From Dehalococcoidia bacterium (GTDB lineage Bacteria > Chloroflexota > Dehalococcoidia > Lucifugimonadales > UBA1123), in assembly GCA_009838465.1 (NCBI GenBank), contig VXRN01000015.1, forward strand, positions 62,001-126,000: a stretch of 64,000 nucleotides of DNA. The letters run 5' to 3'. The translations under genes were made by a program, and so were the position numbers. Below the pieces are notes generated by a model. It did no database searches. It was not told the DNA's origin and saw only the letters and a list, made by a program, of their open reading frames with translations. Positions 6,745 through 56,894 of the stretch are shown in pieces; within the stretch, counting starts at the first letter, position 1; the number at the start of each line of letters is the position of its first letter.

Positions 6745-7778
6745 CCGCTGAAGCGCGGCATCACCCTCTCACCAAATAGCCGTATGGAGTTCTGGACGCC
6801 GACCGTGTCCATCTCGCCGATGTTCATCTTCATCATCAGGTTGCGCACGCCGACGTCACGCAGTTCGGCTATCTGCTCCGCAACCTGCTCCGGAGTCCCG
6901 ATGATGCACGCCCTCTCGAAATCCTCGCCAGCGGGCAGGGGCTTGGTCGGGTCAAGCGGTGGGAATCCTTCCGGATTGTAGATCTCGCGCGCCTCGCGGA
7001 AATGCTTGCGCTCCCTGTGGAAGCCGGGCTCGCACAGTTCCCGGGCGCGTTCGTAGGTCTCCGCGACGAATACGTTTTTGGAGAACCAGCACTGATCCAG
7101 GGTAGTCTCGATTGTGTCCTCGTCGAAACCCGACTTTGCCATTTCATCCCTGTACCCGGTCATGCGCGACACGAATACCTCCGGCTCCTGTACTCCCATC
7201 AGGATTGGACGGCCTATACGTCCCATCGCAAGGGTGGACGCTTCGCTTATGCAGGCGCGCACCAGTGGCGGGTGGGGCTTCTGGAAGGGCTGCGGCCTTA
7301 GCTGCGGGAATTCTACGTCCCAGAATCTGCCCTTGTGTCGCACGTTATCCGTGGTCCACGACTTCACGAGCAGTTCTTCGGCCTCTGCCAGCCTGTCCGG
7401 GCCTTCGTCCATCGGAATGCCGAAGCCCATGTATTCATAGGTATTGAAGGCGGACCCGCGTCCGACGCCCACGATGAGCCTTCCTCGACTCAGGTTGTCC
7501 AGCAGCGCGGTCTGTGCCGCGAGCCTTACCGGATGATGGAACGCCATCTCGACCACCGCGAAACCGATCTTGATTCGCGTGGTCCTGGACGCGACCGCCG
7601 CGCCGAAGACGAGTGGGTCCACGTAGGCGCACGCACCGTCGAAGTGGTGTTCGGTGAGCCACGCTGCCTCAAACCCCATATTGTCTTGGAGTTCTATTTC
7701 GGCCAGTGTGCCGGCGATCACGGCGGCGTCTTTGCCGGGTTCATGACTTACCGGAAACACCATCGAGCCGAATCGCAT
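6741..7778 (-). CDS. LLM-class flavin-dependent oxidoreductase
   Basis: The 345-residue protein is a bacterial-luciferase-like monooxygenase: AAWLTEHHFDG near residue 40, LLDNLSRGRLIVGVGRGS near residue 95 and PPLVRACIS about residue 175 are characteristic. It probably oxidises an organic substrate with reduced flavin and oxygen; the substrate is unknown. It lies 17 bases downstream of the amino-acid transporter ATPase gene on the same strand, so it may be the last gene of that operon. It is a different subgroup from its convergent neighbour. Confidence 0.87.
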   Translation of the reverse strand: MRFGSMVFPVSHEPGKDAAVIAGTLAEIELQDNMGFEAAWLTEHHFDGACAYVDPLVFGAAVASRTTRIKIGFAVVEMAFHHPVRLAAQTALLDNLSRGRLIVGVGRGSAFNTYEYMGFGIPMDEGPDRLAEAEELLVKSWTTDNVRHKGRFWDVEFPQLRPQPFQKPHPPLVRACISEASTLAMGRIGRPILMGVQEPEVFVSRMTGYRDEMAKSGFDEDTIETTLDQCWFSKNVFVAETYERARELCEPGFHRERKHFREAREIYNPEGFPPLDPTKPLPAGEDFERACIIGTPEQVAEQIAELRDVGVRNLMMKMNIGEMDTVGVQNSIRLFGERVMPRFSG

Positions 7779-7795
7779 AGATTTCTCCCAACTGC

Positions 7796-8554
7796 CTATA
7801 GTATCTGCGACAGGAACAGCTTCGTGCGGTCGCTTTGCGGATCCTCGAAAATCTGCTCCGGCGGACCTTCCTCGACGATAATGCCTTCGTCGAACATGAT
7901 CATGCGGTCGGCGACCTCGCGGGCGAAGCCCATCTCGTGCGTGACGACGACCATCGTCATGCCCGACCTGGCCAGTTCCTGCATCACGTCGAGCACTTCC
8001 TTGATCATCTCCGGGTCTAGCGCCGAGGTCGGCTCGTCGAAGAGCATGATGTTGGGCTGCATGGCGAGAGCGCGAGCTATAGCTACACGCTGCTGCTGAC
8101 CGCCCGAAAGTTCGGCAGGGTATTTCTCGGCTTGCTCGGATATTCCCACGCGCTCGAGGAGTTGGTGTGCTACACCGTCGGCCTCGTCGCTCGGCATCCT
8201 CCTGACCTGCGTGGGCCCCAGCGTGATATTTCTCAGAACGCTGAGGTGCGGGAACAGGTTGAAGGACTGGAATACCATGCCCACGTCCCTGCGTATGGCG
8301 TTGATGTTCCTGATGTCATTGGTAAGCTCTATGCCGTCTATGATTATCTGGCCCTGCTGGTGTTCCTCCAGCCGGTTGAGCATTCTGATGAATGTGGATT
8401 TGCCCGAACCCGAAGGCCCGAACACCACGACCACCTGCCCCTTGTAGATCTCGGTGGATATGCCCCTGATAACGTGGAAGTCGCCAAACCACTTATGTAC
8501 GTCCCGGCAGACGATGATGCTCTCGGACTCCGCTTGTGTCCCATTGGCAGTCAT
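7796..8554 (-). CDS. aapP: polar amino-acid ABC transporter ATP-binding protein
   Basis: A 252-residue ABC ATPase of the GlnQ/AapP type: Walker [10 protein letters not shown] near residue 45, Q-loop [10 protein letters not shown], signature [15 protein letters not shown] and Walker [13 protein letters not shown], ending in the usual H-loop VTHEMGFA. It powers the transporter encoded by the two permease genes and the binding-protein gene upstream. Length and motif spacing are normal for the family. The order binding protein, permease, permease, ATPase is that of the aapJQMP general amino-acid system. Confidence 0.92.
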
Positions 8555-8591
8555 AGCGCAACCTCTCTTAAACTCATTGACTCATACGGGG

Positions 8592-9839
8592 TCAGCGCTG
8601 CCCCACGCCCAGATAGCGTTCCACACGTCCACTCACGTAGGACATGGTGTATGTGAATACCCAGAAGACCAGCGCGAGGAAGATGAACAGTTCCTTCGCG
8701 CTCGACAGATACTCGGTGTTGCCCTGTATGAACGCGCGGCTTATCTCAACGATGTCCAGCATACCGATGATATATACCAGGCTGGTGTCCTTGAACAGCG
8801 CGATGAACTGCCCCACTATGGCTGGTATCACGTTCCGAATCGCCTGGGGCAGCGAGATGAACAGCGTCGTCTGCCAGCCGGGAAGTCCGAGCGCGCGCGC
8901 CGCCTCCTCCTGGCCGGGGTGGAGGGCCTGCAAGCCGCCCCGGATGTTCTCTGCCATATACGCCGCGCTGAAGAGCGTGATCACGATGGCGGCGCGGAGC
9001 AGCGAGTTTGGTTTCAGGTCCTCTGGAAAAGCTAGCGGTACCAGCACCTGCGACATGAACAGCAGGGTTATCAGGGGCACCCCCCTGAAAACCTCGATGA
9101 ATACCACGCAGAGCAGCTTCACGATGGGCAGATTGCTGCGCCGTCCCAGCGCGAGCGCTATACCTATCGGCAGGCTGAGCGTGATGCCCGCCACCGCAAG
9201 CAGAATGTTCAGGGTTATTCCACCCCAGTGTATGACCGATACCGGCTGCATACCGGGCACTCCTTCGATCCCACGAAGAAGAACAAGCGTAAGCAGGAAG
9301 AAGACGACCGCCAGAATCGCCACCCATTTCGGAGTTCCAACCGGCGTGTATCGCCCAAGCGCCCATCCCGCAAAGACAGCGGGCAGGTTCGCCACCAGTA
9401 GCAGGCGCACGTCCATCCCCATTTCGTCCAGGCCGTAAGGCAGCAGCGCAAATGCCGCCGATACGATTGCCGCCCCGAGCGCGATGCGCTTCGCCACGCC
9501 TCCACCGGCTACCGCCCAGCCCATTCCGAGCAGGACCGTTACTAGGAGCAGGCTGGCCTGGGGTCTCCAGAAGCAGTTCTGGCCCGGGCAGGACGACTCG
9601 ATGTTGTACTGGCCTATGACCATCTGGCCGCCCAGCACTCCGATGACCGACCAGTCCGCGTCAACCAGAGCCCAGCGACCGCCGTACCACAGCGCAACAA
9701 CCAGGATTATCACCAGGACGACCGTGAGGAGCGCGTTGTACCAGGTGCTGAAAAGGTTGGCGCGCATCCATCCGACCGCTCCGGTCTCGGAGCGCGGCGG
9801 CGGCAGGCTTGGCGGACGTTGTTGGAGAGTGGTGGCCAA
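8592..9839 (-). CDS. aapM: amino-acid ABC transporter permease (AapM-like)
   Basis: The 415-residue protein has an extra N-terminal membrane region and a C-terminal permease domain with the EAARALGLPGWQ loop that contacts the ATPase. The long N-terminus is typical of AapM/BztC rather than the short HisM/GlnP permeases. The start is a TTG at 9839, four bases after the aapQ stop, with a GGAG about eight bases before it. It forms the membrane channel together with AapQ. The exact amino-acid range is not predictable. Confidence 0.88.
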   Translation of the reverse strand: MATTLQQRPPSLPPPRSETGAVGWMRANLFSTWYNALLTVVLVIILVVALWYGGRWALVDADWSVIGVLGGQMVIGQYNIESSCPGQNCFWRPQASLLLVTVLLGMGWAVAGGGVAKRIALGAAIVSAAFALLPYGLDEMGMDVRLLLVANLPAVFAGWALGRYTPVGTPKWVAILAVVFFLLTLVLLRGIEGVPGMQPVSVIHWGGITLNILLAVAGITLSLPIGIALALGRRSNLPIVKLLCVVFIEVFRGVPLITLLFMSQVLVPLAFPEDLKPNSLLRAAIVITLFSAAYMAENIRGGLQALHPGQEEAARALGLPGWQTTLFISLPQAIRNVIPAIVGQFIALFKDTSLVYIIGMLDIVEISRAFIQGNTEYLSSAKELFIFLALVFWVFTYTMSYVSGRVERYLGVGQR

Positions 9840-12845: not shown

Positions 12846-13946
12846 ATGACCTCACTCAAGGACAATTTCAACGGCATTCAGGAGTACGCCAGCGACCAGG
12901 GTCTCGACCTGGGATGGATAGACCGGCAGGGTGAATGGGGAGTCAAGGCCACCGCGGACGGCGCGAAGGGCCTCACGCTCAACGATACCCAGATTGGCAG
13001 CTATGGCGACCCGCCGGAAGAATCCGACAACATGACGGGCAAGCCCAGGGGCGCGGCGGCTAGGCCCAACGCCTATCGCATAGGCGGGTACCAGGTGCGC
13101 ACCAAGTCCGACATCTGGCTCACCAACGCCTCCATGCTGTATGAAGAGGCTCTCCAGCGACAGTGGAGTTCGGCCACCGATATTCCGTGGCAGGCCATCA
13201 AACCGCTCCCAGACGACATCGAGCGAGCGCAGTGCCAGCTTGCCACATTCCTCACTGAGGTCGAGTTCGTCGCAGCCGACATCCCGGGCCGCTGGGTCGC
13301 CAGCACCACGCCGGACTACTTCGAGCCGCGAATGTTCCTCATCACCCAGATCATGGACGAGTCGCGCCACCTCGATGTCTTCCGCAAGCGAGCGCTCGCC
13401 AACGGCGGCGGACTGATGCAGCGCCCGGACATAAACGTCACCACCAGCGGAGTCGTCGGGAGCATTGACCTGTCCAGGGACTTTACCGAGATGTCCTCGC
13501 GCCTGCACATTTCGGGCGAGGGCGCGGTGCTCACCATCTTCCGAATGGGTGAACTCATGGCATACAACGACGCAGAGAAGCGCATCTACCGCCTCGCGGC
13601 GCAGGACGAGTCCCGCCACGTGGCCTTCGGCGTGATGCACATGCGTTACCTTGCCGAGACGGAGCCGGACCGCAAGGAAGAGATTCACGAATATCTGGAC
13701 GAGGGCGAGCGCAGCCTCGTCTCCGGCAGCCAGAATCCGGCGGCGCGCGACTCGGCTCAGAGTGAGTCGCTCTCTATATTGCTGGGCGGCGGCCAGAAGA
13801 ACTTCGACGAGGGCTACCGCAAGCTGCTCGCCATCCGCAAGCGACAGGCGAAGGAGTACGTCCAGCGCATCCGCTCCGCCGGATTCGGCGAGAGGTTCGA
13901 GAACGGCAGGGCCAACCCCGAGCTTATGGAATACGTGAGGAGCTAG
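12846..13946 (+). CDS. ferritin-like diiron protein, catalytic-type subunit
   Basis: The 366-residue protein has a complete ferritin-like diiron ligand pattern: Glu138 (in LTEVEF), Glu172 and His175 (DESRH), Glu225 (SGEGAV), Glu255 and His258 (DESRH). This E / ExxH / E / ExxH order is that of the ribonucleotide-reductase-R2 and bacterial multicomponent-monooxygenase superfamily. I cannot place it in a named family. By analogy it probably activates oxygen in the cytoplasm to oxidise an unknown substrate. ATG at 12846 follows an AAGGGGG site. The next gene, four bases downstream, is a full-length paralogue with the ligands lost, so the two probably form a complex. Confidence 0.85.
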   Translation: MTSLKDNFNGIQEYASDQGLDLGWIDRQGEWGVKATADGAKGLTLNDTQIGSYGDPPEESDNMTGKPRGAAARPNAYRIGGYQVRTKSDIWLTNASMLYEEALQRQWSSATDIPWQAIKPLPDDIERAQCQLATFLTEVEFVAADIPGRWVASTTPDYFEPRMFLITQIMDESRHLDVFRKRALANGGGLMQRPDINVTTSGVVGSIDLSRDFTEMSSRLHISGEGAVLTIFRMGELMAYNDAEKRIYRLAAQDESRHVAFGVMHMRYLAETEPDRKEEIHEYLDEGERSLVSGSQNPAARDSAQSESLSILLGGGQKNFDEGYRKLLAIRKRQAKEYVQRIRSAGFGERFENGRANPELMEYVRS

Positions 13947-13950
13947 TCGC

Positions 13951-15063
13951 TTGGCAGACGAAGACCGCCAGCAGAGAGTCGCCGGGCAGAAGACCGAGGT
14001 CTGGGAGAGGCCAAGACGCAGGCGTACCCTCAACACGGACGAAAACGTAGAAGTTCCCGAACCTTCATATGCCTGGATGCCACGCTCGCTCCAATGGGAG
14101 ACGCGGGTCAAGCCGGGCAAGGCTGGTCTCAGAATAGGCGACCTCAACGTTGGCATATACGGTGAGATTCCCGATCAGTGGGATGAGCCGACCCGTATGC
14201 CTCGCGGCGCGTACCCGCTCGCTGGCATACCTCCCCTGGGATTCGCGCTCAAGAACAAGCGCGATATGTGGGCCGACAACGCAGCCGACCTCTACGAGGA
14301 GGCGATACAGAGGCGCTGGATAGCGGCGACAGACATCCCCTGGGATACCATCCAGCCGCTTCCGGACGATGTTGAGGCCGCCATGTGTCAGGTTTGCACC
14401 GAGTTGAGCCAGGCTGCCAACGTCGAGTTTGAGACGATAGGCTACTGGCTTCAGCACATGTCTTACGGCTACCACGAGGTCAAGCTGTTTCTCGCAACCA
14501 ATATGTTCGACGCCGGACGTCACCACGAGGCGTTCAGAAAGCGCGCGCTGTCCAACGGCGGCGGACTCGGACTCGAGAGCCGGGGCGAGATCAACCGCAT
14601 GATCCTGGAAAGCAAGGGCGGCTGGTCCGAGACCAGCCTGTTTCTACACCTGCTCAGGGGAACGTACCTCCTAACCGTGTACAGGCACTGCGAACGCTTC
14701 GCTAACAATCCCGCAGAGAAGGTCCTGTTCGCGCGCGCGATGCAGGACAAGGCGCGACACGTCGCCTATGGAATCCAGCACCTGCGCTACGCCGTCACCC
14801 ACCAGCAGGACAAGGCGCTGATATTCCAGCGTCTGCTGTTCATAGGTGAGCGCGTCTTCACCAAGGAACTCCAGGACCCCGCCATGCTCGAACCGCTCGC
14901 CATAGTCTTCGGCGGCGGCATAGAGGGAGCGCGTGCCGGAATGGGACACGTCAAGCGTATGATGGCCGACTGGCTCACTGCATACACGTCCGCCTGCGAA
15001 TGGATAGGTATCCAGCGCGCCGTGCCCCTGTCCCCGGATCTGGCCAAGTACCTGGAGGACTAG
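13951..15063 (+). CDS. ferritin-like paralogue with lost metal ligands (pseudo-diiron subunit)
   Basis: The 370-residue protein aligns along its length with the preceding gene product; the central region aligns without gaps. At the ligand sites it has Gln154 for Glu138, Ala188 for Glu172, Gly237 for Glu225 and Lys267 for Glu255, while both histidines (191 and 270) and the following RH are kept. It therefore cannot bind a normal diiron centre and is more likely a structural or regulatory partner, as the beta subunit is for monooxygenase alpha subunits. It starts at a TTG at 13951 with AGGAG eight bases upstream. Confidence 0.82.
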   Translation: MADEDRQQRVAGQKTEVWERPRRRRTLNTDENVEVPEPSYAWMPRSLQWETRVKPGKAGLRIGDLNVGIYGEIPDQWDEPTRMPRGAYPLAGIPPLGFALKNKRDMWADNAADLYEEAIQRRWIAATDIPWDTIQPLPDDVEAAMCQVCTELSQAANVEFETIGYWLQHMSYGYHEVKLFLATNMFDAGRHHEAFRKRALSNGGGLGLESRGEINRMILESKGGWSETSLFLHLLRGTYLLTVYRHCERFANNPAEKVLFARAMQDKARHVAYGIQHLRYAVTHQQDKALIFQRLLFIGERVFTKELQDPAMLEPLAIVFGGGIEGARAGMGHVKRMMADWLTAYTSACEWIGIQRAVPLSPDLAKYLED

Positions 15064-15064
15064 A

Positions 15065-15502
15065 TTGCCCGCTTTCCCGTCCGTAGAGTGGTTCGACGCC
15101 GTGCGCCACGAATTCAACACGAACGACGTCGTGCGGACAGCAGGCGGCGGAATGTGCGACGCCAGAGTAGGCGTCAAGGCCGGTGATAGTATATTCCTGC
15201 TCGTCTTCGAGGGATTCGAGTGCTCGTCGGCGTCCGAGATAGCCGAGTCCGACCTCGAAGACACAGACTTCTACCTCGATATGCCCATGGAAGACTGGGC
15301 GGACATGCTGGAGAATATCCGCGAGAACGGCGAAGCGGACCTCGACCACTCCCTCAACACCATGGACCTCGACAGCCTGGACGGTCTCGCCCACTCCTAC
15401 ACAGGCGACCAGTACCGCCAGGATATGTTCTTCCGCTACAACCAGACGTTCCAGTACTTCTTCGACCAGTCATCGCGGGTGGAGACTGAGTTCTCTGAAT
15501 AA
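15065..15502 (+). CDS. SCP2-like (sterol-carrier-fold) protein
   Basis: The 145-residue protein begins MPAFPSVEWFDAVR and contains alternating strands and helices including DARVGVKAGDSIFLLVFEGF and a MEDWADMLENIR helix. This resembles SCP2-type lipid-binding domains, though the match is by pattern only. It starts at a TTG at 15065, one base after the preceding stop, with GGAGG at 15054-15058. The gene at 15868 encodes a clear paralogue (FPSVEWFEAVR, FLLDFEAFECS, NNIRDNGGAD). It may bind or present a hydrophobic substrate to the diiron proteins; that is inference. Confidence 0.65.
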   Translation: MPAFPSVEWFDAVRHEFNTNDVVRTAGGGMCDARVGVKAGDSIFLLVFEGFECSSASEIAESDLEDTDFYLDMPMEDWADMLENIRENGEADLDHSLNTMDLDSLDGLAHSYTGDQYRQDMFFRYNQTFQYFFDQSSRVETEFSE

Positions 15503-15517
15503 CTTGCGAGGTTCAAG

Positions 15518-15862
15518 TTGACGAGTCAATGGCCTAAGCGCCATGCGTTGGCCGCGCCTTGGGGAACCGCGCTGGCAACGTGGATATTGACGATGTATTA
15601 CAAACCAGTTGCCTTCTATGCTATGGTGAGTATGGGCGCTATGGCATATGGCATGATCATGTCAGCGCTGGAATTGGGGGTAATGATGGCATTCTATGCA
15701 TATGAGAAAATTAAGAATGAGAGAGAGAAACTGCGTAAGCAGGGTGCTGATTCGGTACTCACCAGACTTGCGGAGAATCCTCGTCTGTCCGATAAAATGA
15801 AGAAAGCCTTGATAGCCGACCTGCAAAATAATGGACGGAATAACGGGAACATGGGGAACTGA
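15518..15862 (+). CDS. small membrane protein of unknown function
   Basis: The 114-residue product has one or two hydrophobic segments between about residues 10 and 60, followed by a charged helix (YEKIKNEREKLRKQ) and a tail ending in Asn/Gly. I do not recognise the family. It starts at a TTG (15518) preceded by GCGAGG. Codon use is visibly more AT-rich than in the neighbours. It lies between the two SCP2-like paralogues, so it was probably inserted after their duplication. It could anchor the complex to the membrane, but that is conjecture. Confidence 0.6.
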   Translation: MTSQWPKRHALAAPWGTALATWILTMYYKPVAFYAMVSMGAMAYGMIMSALELGVMMAFYAYEKIKNEREKLRKQGADSVLTRLAENPRLSDKMKKALIADLQNNGRNNGNMGN

Positions 15863-15867
15863 ATCCA

Positions 15868-16284
15868 ATGCCCACCTTCCCCTCAGTAGAATGGTTTGAG
15901 GCCGTGAGGTCGGCCGCCAACGATGACCGCGACTTTCGGAGCCTCGGCACCTGCTTCGCGCAGGTCGGAGTCCGGGTCGGGGGGCGCGTGTTCCTGCTCG
16001 ACTTCGAGGCATTCGAGTGTTCCGGTGTGTCCGAGGCGGACGACACCGCGCTGCACGATGTGGATTTCGCGCTCAACATGACCCCTGACGAGTGGCGGCG
16101 TCTGCTGAACAACATCCGTGATAACGGCGGAGCGGACTCCGAGAACACGTTCAATACTCTGGAAATCGAACGCGGGATCATTGAGTCTCCCAACCCCTAC
16201 GGACAGAATAACTTCCCCCGCTACCACCTCACTATCCAGCGTTTCTTCGACGTATCGAGCGGGGTGGAAACCACTTTCGCGTGA
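15868..16284 (+). CDS. SCP2-like paralogue of the 15065 gene
   Basis: The 138-residue protein begins MPTFPSVEWFEAVRSAAND and shares with the 15065 product the FLLxFExFECS strand, an xxWxxxLxNIRxNGxAD helix region and a C-terminal RFFD..SGVET. It has the same expected SCP2-like fold. It starts at an ATG five bases after the preceding stop. Having two divergent copies in the same operon as two divergent ferritin-like proteins suggests a matched pair of complexes or a heteromeric assembly. Confidence 0.65.
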   Translation: MPTFPSVEWFEAVRSAANDDRDFRSLGTCFAQVGVRVGGRVFLLDFEAFECSGVSEADDTALHDVDFALNMTPDEWRRLLNNIRDNGGADSENTFNTLEIERGIIESPNPYGQNNFPRYHLTIQRFFDVSSGVETTFA

Positions 16285-16291
16285 GGCCGCC

Positions 16292-16573
16292 ATGCCTATA
16301 TACGAATACCGATGTGACGATTGCGACATCAAGACCGCCAAACTGGTCAGGGGTTTCGATGCGCCCAAATCAATAGTCTGTCGCGAGTGCAGTAGCGAGA
16401 ACACCCACCGGATCATATCCAGCGTGGCGTTCCACAAGTCGCTCAACTCCCAGTTGCAGGACTTGGATCCGAGGTACGACCGCATGGCGGACGCCGCAGC
16501 CGCAAGCACGGCCGAGGCCGACCCTAACCGCTTCCTGAAGAGCGCGATTCCCTTAGATGCGGCGGAAGACTAG
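16292..16573 (+). CDS. FmdB-type zinc-ribbon protein
   Basis: The 93-residue protein starts MPIYEYRCDDC and has two CxxC pairs (Cys8/11 and Cys30/33), the FmdB/CxxC zinc-ribbon pattern, then a low-complexity Ala-rich tail. I start it at the ATG 16292, seven bases after the previous stop; the reading frame continues upstream but without homology. These proteins are small putative regulators or metal chaperones; they are common beside iron or amide-metabolising enzymes. Here it may help assemble or control the diiron complex. Confidence 0.8.
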   Translation: MPIYEYRCDDCDIKTAKLVRGFDAPKSIVCRECSSENTHRIISSVAFHKSLNSQLQDLDPRYDRMADAAAASTAEADPNRFLKSAIPLDAAED

Positions 16574-16579
16574 CGCTCC

Positions 16580-17215
16580 ATGATCTACGAAGAACGCCGC
16601 ATTACGCTCAGGCGCGGACAGCTCGATGCCTACGCCTCGCACCTCCGCGACTTTGTCCGTCCAAGCCTGGGTGGCGGCGAAATACTCTGTCTGCTGAGCG
16701 CAGCGATAGGCGGGCCAGTCGAGTCCATTTTGCAGATGACGCGATTCTCGGACTACGATGCTTGGCTTGAAGCGCAGTCCGCATACGGCGCTGACAGGAT
16801 GGAACTCGTGGCCCACGAAGAGGTGCGTCTGCTGAGGTCGGTGTCCGTCAGGCCGAAAGATGTGATCGAAGAGTCGGATATGCGCCCGTTCTATGGTCAT
16901 CGTCGCTTTCACATAGACCCCAGCGATCTGGACGAGTTCGTCCACTGCTCCGAGAATGGCATCTGGCCTCGCATCGAGTCTCAGGGCGCTTCCATACTGG
17001 GGCTTTGGGCGACGCTGGCCTCCACCTCTCCGTTCGAAGTAACTCTACTGACCGGCTACCACGGTCCTGCGCACTGGGAGGCCACCCGCCAGCATGGCGA
17101 CAAGCCCGACGGCATGGACGACGCCACGTGGGAACACAGCCTGAGTCTCCACAGACGCCGCTCTGAACTTCCAGTGAAGACGTGGGTCCGCTTGATGCGG
17201 CGGATAGAACCGTAA
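16580..17215 (+). CDS. NIPSNAP-like dimeric alpha-beta barrel protein
   Basis: The 211-residue protein has two repeats of an alpha-beta barrel half: residues about 1-95 (MIYEERRITLRRGQLDAY) and about 100-211 (FYGHRRFHIDPSDLDEF, TLLTGYHGPAHWE). This tandem layout matches NIPSNAP-family proteins, whose roles are poorly known and which often accompany degradation enzymes. It is the last gene of the operon, six bases after the zinc-ribbon gene, and is followed by the tmRNA promoter. Function is not assigned. Confidence 0.7.
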   Translation: MIYEERRITLRRGQLDAYASHLRDFVRPSLGGGEILCLLSAAIGGPVESILQMTRFSDYDAWLEAQSAYGADRMELVAHEEVRLLRSVSVRPKDVIEESDMRPFYGHRRFHIDPSDLDEFVHCSENGIWPRIESQGASILGLWATLASTSPFEVTLLTGYHGPAHWEATRQHGDKPDGMDDATWEHSLSLHRRRSELPVKTWVRLMRRIEP

Positions 17216-17300: not shown

Positions 17301-17652
17301 GGGGACGCGTGGGTTCGACAGGGGATGCTTTCGCGGGACTGCAAGCCGAGGCGCCATCAACCTCGTTAATCAGGTGGCAAAGAAAGTAACTGACGACAAT
17401 CAGTACGCACTAGCCGCTTAATACCGGCTACGTCTCCCGGTTCCGACTCCCGTAGGGGCCGACGAGGCGCCGAAAATCGGGATGCTGTTCCGGCGACGCC
17501 GATGACCGGGACAAAAGACCGTCGGCTAGCCTCGTGCGCCGCCTCTGCCGGTGCGGACGCGCCGCGGTGATTCAAAGCACCGGATAAGCTTGTAGATGTC
17601 TTGGACGAAGAGTCTTCTGGACGGGGAGTTCGACCCTCCCCCGTCTCCACCA
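17301..17652 (+). ncRNA. ssrA: transfer-messenger RNA (tmRNA)
   Basis: The 5' end GGGGACGCGTGGGTTCGACAG and the 3' end with a T-arm (GTTCGACCC) and encoded CCA at 17650-17652 are diagnostic. The acceptor stem GGGGACG/CGTCTCC pairs over seven base pairs with one G-T. The tag open frame reads AKKVTDDNQYALAA and then TAA, the usual hydrophobic ALAA ending recognised by proteases. The 352-base length is normal for a one-piece tmRNA. It rescues stalled ribosomes with SmpB, which is not encoded in this window. Confidence 0.97.
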
Positions 17653-53053: not shown

Positions 53054-53134
53054 CGAGTCATCGCTGCCTGCGAATCCCGGAGTTTGCCGGATGACTTGCA
53101 GGCATGGAAGCGCTCCCATCAGCGAGAAGCCAAC

Positions 53135-53300
53135 TTCCAACACGCGGGACAGGTATCCTGACTTACGGGTCTTCACGTCGGCGACGCCTTCCCGGTCCTC
53201 GGACCAGTGGCAAATGTCGCGACGCTACCCAATCACAGTGGCGCGTCCGTGGGAGACTCTCACTCCCTTCCCTGCGTTCCTGCGTATTAGATATTGAAAT
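53135..53300 (-). promoter_or_regulatory. cobalamin riboswitch controlling cobN operon
   Basis: Read on the minus strand, the leader has the conserved elements GCCACTG (twice), GGGAAGG, GTGAAGACC and the B12 box GTCAGGATACCTG (53162-53150). This is the typical adenosylcobalamin aptamer order. It is followed by an intrinsic terminator at 53011-53053 and then cobN. High cobalamin should therefore stop expression of the whole synthesis and cobalt-import operon. Confidence 0.95.
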
Positions 53301-56621: not shown

Positions 56622-56704
56622 CGCATCGTCTCTGACCTAACTCCTCTTCTGAGGAGAATCGGCACAAAACTGAGGCGCTCCCTAAGACGAAGAGCGGCTA
56701 ATCA

Positions 56705-56880
56705 GCCCTACCCGGCAGGTCTCCTGGCTCTCGGATCGTCGCCTGTCCCGCGCCTTCCCATCCAAATGGACAGTGGCTACAGCGGGGCGGCTACCCGATT
56801 ACAGTGGCGCCTCCGCAGCGGATTCTCACCGCTTTCCCTATTCGCGCTGGGCTTTCCAGCGCACCAAGTTGGGTTGGCCT
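56705..56880 (-). promoter_or_regulatory. cobalamin riboswitch controlling btuCFD
   Basis: On the minus strand: GGTGAGAATCCGC, GCGCCACTGTAATCGGG, GCCACTG, GGGAAGGCG and the B12-box-like GAGCCAGGAGACCTGCC, in the standard order of a cobalamin aptamer. It differs from the 53 kb copy in the B12 box, which is less perfect. It is followed by a terminator and btuC. Cobalamin should shut off corrinoid import. Confidence 0.95.
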
Positions 56881-56894
56881 AAATAACTGGCGCG

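Follow-up and report, generated by a model that had tools for sequence, protein, structure and literature searches.

What does a compact run of genes that sets two ferritin-like paralogues beside two proteins resembling sterol carrier protein 2 (SCP2) do in a bacterium of the class Dehalococcoidia? The run lies in the window analysed here, a stretch of 64,000 nucleotides that forms a section of contig C17 in a 3.55 Mb genome, and the closest named loci belong to metagenome-assembled genomes (MAGs) of uncultured Dehalococcoidia and SAR202. Seven co-directional open reading frames (ORFs) are packed within positions 12846-17215, with successive spacings of 4, 1, 15, 5, 7 and 6 bases; for these genes, g1 to g7, the working names FerA (g1), FerB (g2), SCPa (g3), SCPb (g5), ribbon (g6) and NIPSNAP-like (g7) are used. 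An earlier note had described seven tightly packed genes with gaps of 1-15 bases, with which the ORF coordinates agree, and had read them as a heteromeric oxygen-activating system; the observation is confirmed and the interpretation is partly supported. The conserved unit is wider than this genome and smaller than seven genes: it is a five-gene core without g4 and g7.

A five-gene core kept across two phyla

With g1 as the query, GTDB contigs yielded 62 loci, 63-99% identical, in MAGs of Chloroflexota and Gammaproteobacteria, and the core was counted in the 44 that extend at least 4.2 kb after FerA; these loci are not fully independent, L027 and L046 coming from one MAG and a few being near-copies. 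Profile searches of the loci give the core order FerA-FerB-SCPa-SCPb-zinc ribbon, complete in 31 of the 44. FerB is found in 43 of them, SCPa in 42 and the ribbon in 41; SCPb is recognised as such in 34, and a further four have a second SCP2-like copy whose best score is with SCPa. The suggestion that the ferritin-like (Fer) pair and the SCP2-like pair form a conserved cluster is borne out by this linkage, in a fixed order, outside the genome of origin. The duplicated pair-of-pairs layout recurs in many loci but not in soil Chloroflexota, which carry a single SCP2-like gene in the order FerA-FerB-ribbon-SCP2. Ratios of non-synonymous to synonymous substitution (dN/dS) of 0.01-0.09 for g1-g3 and g5-g7 indicate purifying selection and, together with a gene order kept across two phyla, place the cluster far beyond chance.

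The last core member, g6, is an FmdB zinc ribbon above both curated cut-offs (Pfam, 47.5 bits against 34.4; NCBIfam, 50.8 against 31.3), in which C8, C11 and C30 are present in 53 of 53 sequences and C33 in 47, followed by a conserved tail. Like this ribbon, g7 had been correctly named in the earlier note, as it passes the NIPSNAP family cut-off. Including g7 and the membrane protein g4 in the system does not hold: both are lineage-specific and fall outside the core. Among eight genomes, the in-operon copy of g4, whose G+C content is 0.49 against about 0.6 in its surroundings, is confined to two, the present one and its nearest relative, and g7 is restricted to close family members; because both genes are so confined, they are regarded as additions. 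In the nearest relative (genome G002, contig C2), the operon is split at g4 (L132 and L020, at 841314-842721 and about 927208-930213), so that FerA-FerB-SCPa-g4 lies about 86 kb from the SCPb-ribbon-NIPSNAP and tmRNA (transfer-messenger RNA) side, with every part retained and under purifying selection.

The association between FerA and the SCP2-like genes extends to co-occurrence, as seen in profile searches of 400 Chloroflexota genomes. At E values up to 1e-3, the FerA profile was found in 26 genomes and the SCP2 profile in 19, with 17 in common. Under stricter thresholds, picked after the tables had been seen (FerA <1e-30, SCP2 <1e-20), the counts are 19 and 17 with 17 shared, giving a Fisher p of 5e-28 that is inflated by kinship, the 17 shared genomes spanning 8 families, and that draws on an SCP2 profile built from linked copies. 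A strong SCP2-like match without FerA was met in 0 of the 400 genomes, and in several genomes the SCP2-like gene has no Fer gene near it. At class-level loci (L097, L101-L104 and L107-L110) there are two to three FerA-FerB pairs per genome and one SCP2-like gene elsewhere, the multiple pairs being a paralogous expansion in other families of the class.

The core genes also appear to share a history. The distances of FerA, FerB, SCPa and the ribbon correlate across 40 loci (Spearman 0.73-0.88), and the gammaproteobacterial rows stay together in both Fer subtrees, adjoining SAR202-type rows. Since FerA is about 65-75% identical between Chloroflexota and Gammaproteobacteria, these comparisons suggest that the operon was transferred as a whole between the two phyla. 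Downstream of the gammaproteobacterial clusters (L045, L059-L062, L064, L067 and L070), an alpha/beta hydrolase gene recurs on the opposite strand, and most of these loci have a class III CoA transferase gene beyond it. A by-eye impression of the hydrolase as an epoxide hydrolase was not used, as Pfam gives Abhydrolase_1 only.

The claim that this set corresponds to no named system stands as far as the family libraries and open papers go: g1, g2, g3 and g5 reach the cut-off of no Pfam or NCBIfam model, single-sequence and family searches giving FerA sub-threshold matches alone. Annotated plasmids yielded only distant partial matches, with no SCP2 named beside the two matches inspected, and a PHROGs search yielded nothing useful. 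No paper describing a FerA-FerB-SCP2-ribbon cluster was found in the open literature, although one may exist elsewhere.

The ferritin-like and SCP2-like pairs

The metal ligands were compared in an alignment of 149 Fer sequences (core FerA, core FerB and class-level rows). Six residues, E140, E172, H175, E225, E255 and H258, are invariant in 60 of 60 core FerA sequences and kept in 20 of the 21 class-level rows called FerA, making 80 FerA sequences in all; the one class-level row that departs from this (L111, at 7222) is the member of its own pair that has no ligands. FerA, whose dN/dS against the nearest genome is 0.010, fits the sequence definition of carboxylate-bridged diiron proteins, namely four carboxylates and two histidines, arranged on helices as two E-x-x-H pairs and two lone carboxylates. 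A profile of diverse FerA sequences (A4, members 25-78% identical to g1) retrieves from the PDB VlmB as the best solved homologue (E 3.7e-9), chains of R2-like ligand-binding oxidases (R2lox; E 1.8e-5) and the methane monooxygenase alpha chain (E 0.14). An R2lox model gives weak matches to each of 18 diverse FerA sequences, and FerA scores 36.9 bits against the NCBIfam R2lox equivalog cut-off of 194. By homology, ligands and profile matches support the earlier proposal that FerA is a putative oxygen-activating diiron protein.

The AlphaFold2 model of FerA is poor (predicted local distance difference test, pLDDT, 54, from 49 alignment rows), and site geometry was not read from it. Its helical part matches aldehyde-deformylating oxygenase (Z 12.9), VlmB (Z 11.2), BoxB and the methane monooxygenase hydroxylase MMOH (Z 10.4) and PaaC (Z 10.0). 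High scores come easily to helical bundles, and fold matches from such a model simply agree with the profile result. Antisense to g1 runs an ORF of 434 amino acids (12852-14156), which lies over conserved genes of the sense strand.

Searches with the FerA profile and with the protein hit both g1 and g2, at 36-41% identity, and it is in the metal site that the two part. Position 140 is A in 58 of 58 core FerB sequences, E172 and E225 are kept in none (the positions being mostly A and mostly G, respectively), and K predominates at position 255, where E is absent from the 57 tabulated rows. The described pairing of one ligand-complete paralogue with one lacking ligands is thus what the alignment displays, with six ligands in g1 and loss of the set in g2. 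In the tree, all 68 FerB rows fall on one side of a branch with an SH-aLRT support of 99, and a dN/dS of 0.023 against the nearest genome means that FerB is maintained and not decaying. At the level of sequence, the layout of a putative catalytic subunit plus a ligand-free paralogue is therefore present. At L111 (6132-8574), a ligand-free FerA paralogue clusters with the FerA of the same locus on a long branch, and may represent a second, independent ligand loss and origin of a non-catalytic partner.

The other two proteins, g3 and g5, are likewise paralogues (49% identical). The structure model of g3 is confident (pLDDT 94.5), and among solved structures it comes closest to 2cx7, a sterol carrier protein 2 (Z 12.9 across 121 residues), with alkylsulfatase chains, further SCP2 proteins and UbiJ next in rank; the predicted fold of g3 is that of SCP2, in keeping with the earlier description of an SCP2-like pair. 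Known SCP2-fold members bind lipids, and by analogy g3 and g5 are proposed to be carriers of a hydrophobic ligand. A functional parallel, in addition to the fold match, is offered by UbiJ, which like UbiT has an SCP2 domain and keeps hydrophobic ubiquinone intermediates bound for hydroxylases that depend on O2 (PMC6747719). The parallel has its differences: the partners of UbiJ are flavin monooxygenases, unlike those of the core, and the Pfam SCP2 model gives no match for g3 or g5 at E up to 1, nor for 65 family members at 0.1.

A candidate diiron oxygenase and its alternatives

On balance, the product of the core is probably a heteromeric diiron oxygenase that includes a non-catalytic twin and acts on a hydrophobic substrate fed to it by SCP2 carriers. 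For complex formation, metal, O2 chemistry, substrate class and electron route, we infer the following scheme. FerA would bind two metals (Fe/Fe or Mn/Fe) through its six conserved ligands and activate O2, the oxygen being inserted into a hydrophobic substrate or the substrate being otherwise oxidised, while FerB would be the structural half of a FerA-FerB heterodimer, the role that PaaC has beside PaaA. The SCP2-like proteins would carry and present a greasy substrate (fatty acyl, isoprenoid or hydrocarbon-like) in the manner of UbiJ. The zinc ribbon would help in assembly; a part in electron transfer, like that of a rubredoxin, is less likely. A general ferredoxin or reductase whose gene lies elsewhere would supply the electrons.

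Several points weigh against this proposal. The SCP2 gene does not stand beside the Fer pair in about half of the class-level genomes. Flanking genes vary by lineage and thus indicate no pathway, so that an assignment from neighbouring genes was dropped. The FerA model is too poor for site geometry to be seen, and VlmB and R2lox show that the FerA fold supports several chemistries. Finally, the reductase or ferredoxin typical of multicomponent-monooxygenase operons is not among the conserved core genes, as the earlier note had remarked; this absence does not extend to a distant class-level relative, L105, in which FerA, SCP2 and a 4Fe-4S ferredoxin stand in a row (7395-9479), without FerB and with overlapping SCP2 and ferredoxin genes, a hint of the electron donor.

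FerA might instead be an R2lox- or VlmB-like oxidase of a small or soluble substrate (by N-oxygenation or desaturation, for example), with FerB as a regulator and the SCP2-like proteins as scaffolds that carry no substrate. This appears unlikely. In its favour, the nearest solved relative of FerA, VlmB, is a natural-product azoxy synthase that makes an azoxy compound by oxidation and is found in natural-product clusters with VlmO, for which no mention of a paired paralogue or SCP2 genes was found (PMC11705231). Several genomes also have FerA-like genes without an adjacent FerB or SCP2. However, the surroundings of the operon showed no recognisable biosynthetic gene cluster, and the strict co-occurrence is with an SCP2 fold, of which the known members are lipid-binding. 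R2lox, which is not known to be accompanied by a dead twin, an SCP2 protein or a zinc ribbon, belongs to the same superfamily as FerA, according to weak model and PDB profile matches, but FerA lies far below its equivalog cut-off. R2lox binds or co-purifies with long-chain fatty acids, and GkR2loxI degrades alkanes (PMC10867098).

Somewhat less probable still is a Paa/Box-type CoA-ester epoxygenase, in which the substrate of FerA and FerB would be an acyl-CoA or aryl-CoA that SCP2 holds. The phenylacetyl-CoA epoxidase PaaABCE combines a ferritin-fold catalytic subunit, PaaA, with a structural paralogue, PaaC, and the iron ligands of PaaA (E42, E72, H75, D126, E155 and H158) follow the same order as in FerA (PMC4498308). 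BoxB and PaaC are among the fold matches of the weak FerA model, the CoA transferase and alpha/beta hydrolase recur near gammaproteobacterial clusters, and a crotonase gene follows the Fer pair in L097, which is a single case. Against this, the Pfam models for PaaA_PaaC and for multicomponent-monooxygenase hydroxylases match neither g1 nor g2 at E up to 1, nor members of the A1, A2 and A4 profiles at 0.1, and the core contains no PaaB, PaaE or ligase, SCP2 genes standing in place of the first two. Iron or manganese sequestration, or peroxide scavenging or sensing, by the Fer pair would suit a ferritin fold and a core without a dedicated electron donor, and is very improbable given that the profiles match oxygenases and R2-type proteins but no ferritin, Dps or rubrerythrin, and that such a role would not readily account for the tie to SCP2 carriers.

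The SCP2-fed oxygenase proposed here is filed under multicomponent diiron oxygenases. More tentatively, the core may stand for an undescribed class of these enzymes, with an R2-type subunit, a dead twin, dedicated SCP2 carriers and a ribbon. Uncultured Chloroflexota and Gammaproteobacteria would use it to oxidise recalcitrant hydrophobic compounds, and it would have passed between the phyla as a unit.

Gene layout, surroundings and implications

Table 1. Genes of the cluster, with positions in the window
Gene	Position	Strand	Description
g1 FerA	12846..13946	+	366 amino acids, ferritin-fold; E140, E172, H175, E225, E255, H258; proposed catalytic subunit
g2 FerB	13951..15063	+	370 amino acids, FerA paralogue without metal ligands; TTG start; proposed non-catalytic partner
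g3 SCPa	15065..15502	+	Predicted SCP2-fold protein; TTG start; proposed lipid or acyl carrier
g4	15518..15862	+	Small membrane protein; G+C 0.49; lineage-specific insertion, outside core
g5 SCPb	15868..16284	+	Second SCP2-like paralogue; faster divergence; missing in soil Chloroflexota
g6	16292..16573	+	FmdB-type zinc ribbon; conserved tail D59, Y62, D67; core member
g7	16580..17215	+	NIPSNAP-like protein; lineage-specific, outside core

Upstream of g1 and divergent from it lie ATP-binding cassette (ABC) transporter genes for a solute-binding protein and permeases, and downstream of g7 are a tmRNA gene (17301-17652, tag peptide DDNQYALAA) and a gene for an ABC ATPase; these flanks are uninformative on the function of the operon. 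The promoter that the earlier note had assigned to g1 was not recovered, a scan of the + strand upstream of the gene showing no promoter-like site and its matches overall being at shuffle level. Elsewhere in the window, two cobalamin riboswitches lie on the - strand (53130-53298 and 56697-56883), 3.4 kb apart.

Many oxidation steps of uncultured ocean and soil bacteria are without an assigned enzyme, and the core is a concrete candidate: a conserved five-gene module with an invariant putative diiron site, the Fer and SCP2-like members of which carry no Pfam or NCBIfam name. The exact gene set is now defined for expression and testing. If the proposal is true, an SCP2-fed diiron oxygenase would join the known multicomponent types and add a further case of an active subunit with a dead twin.

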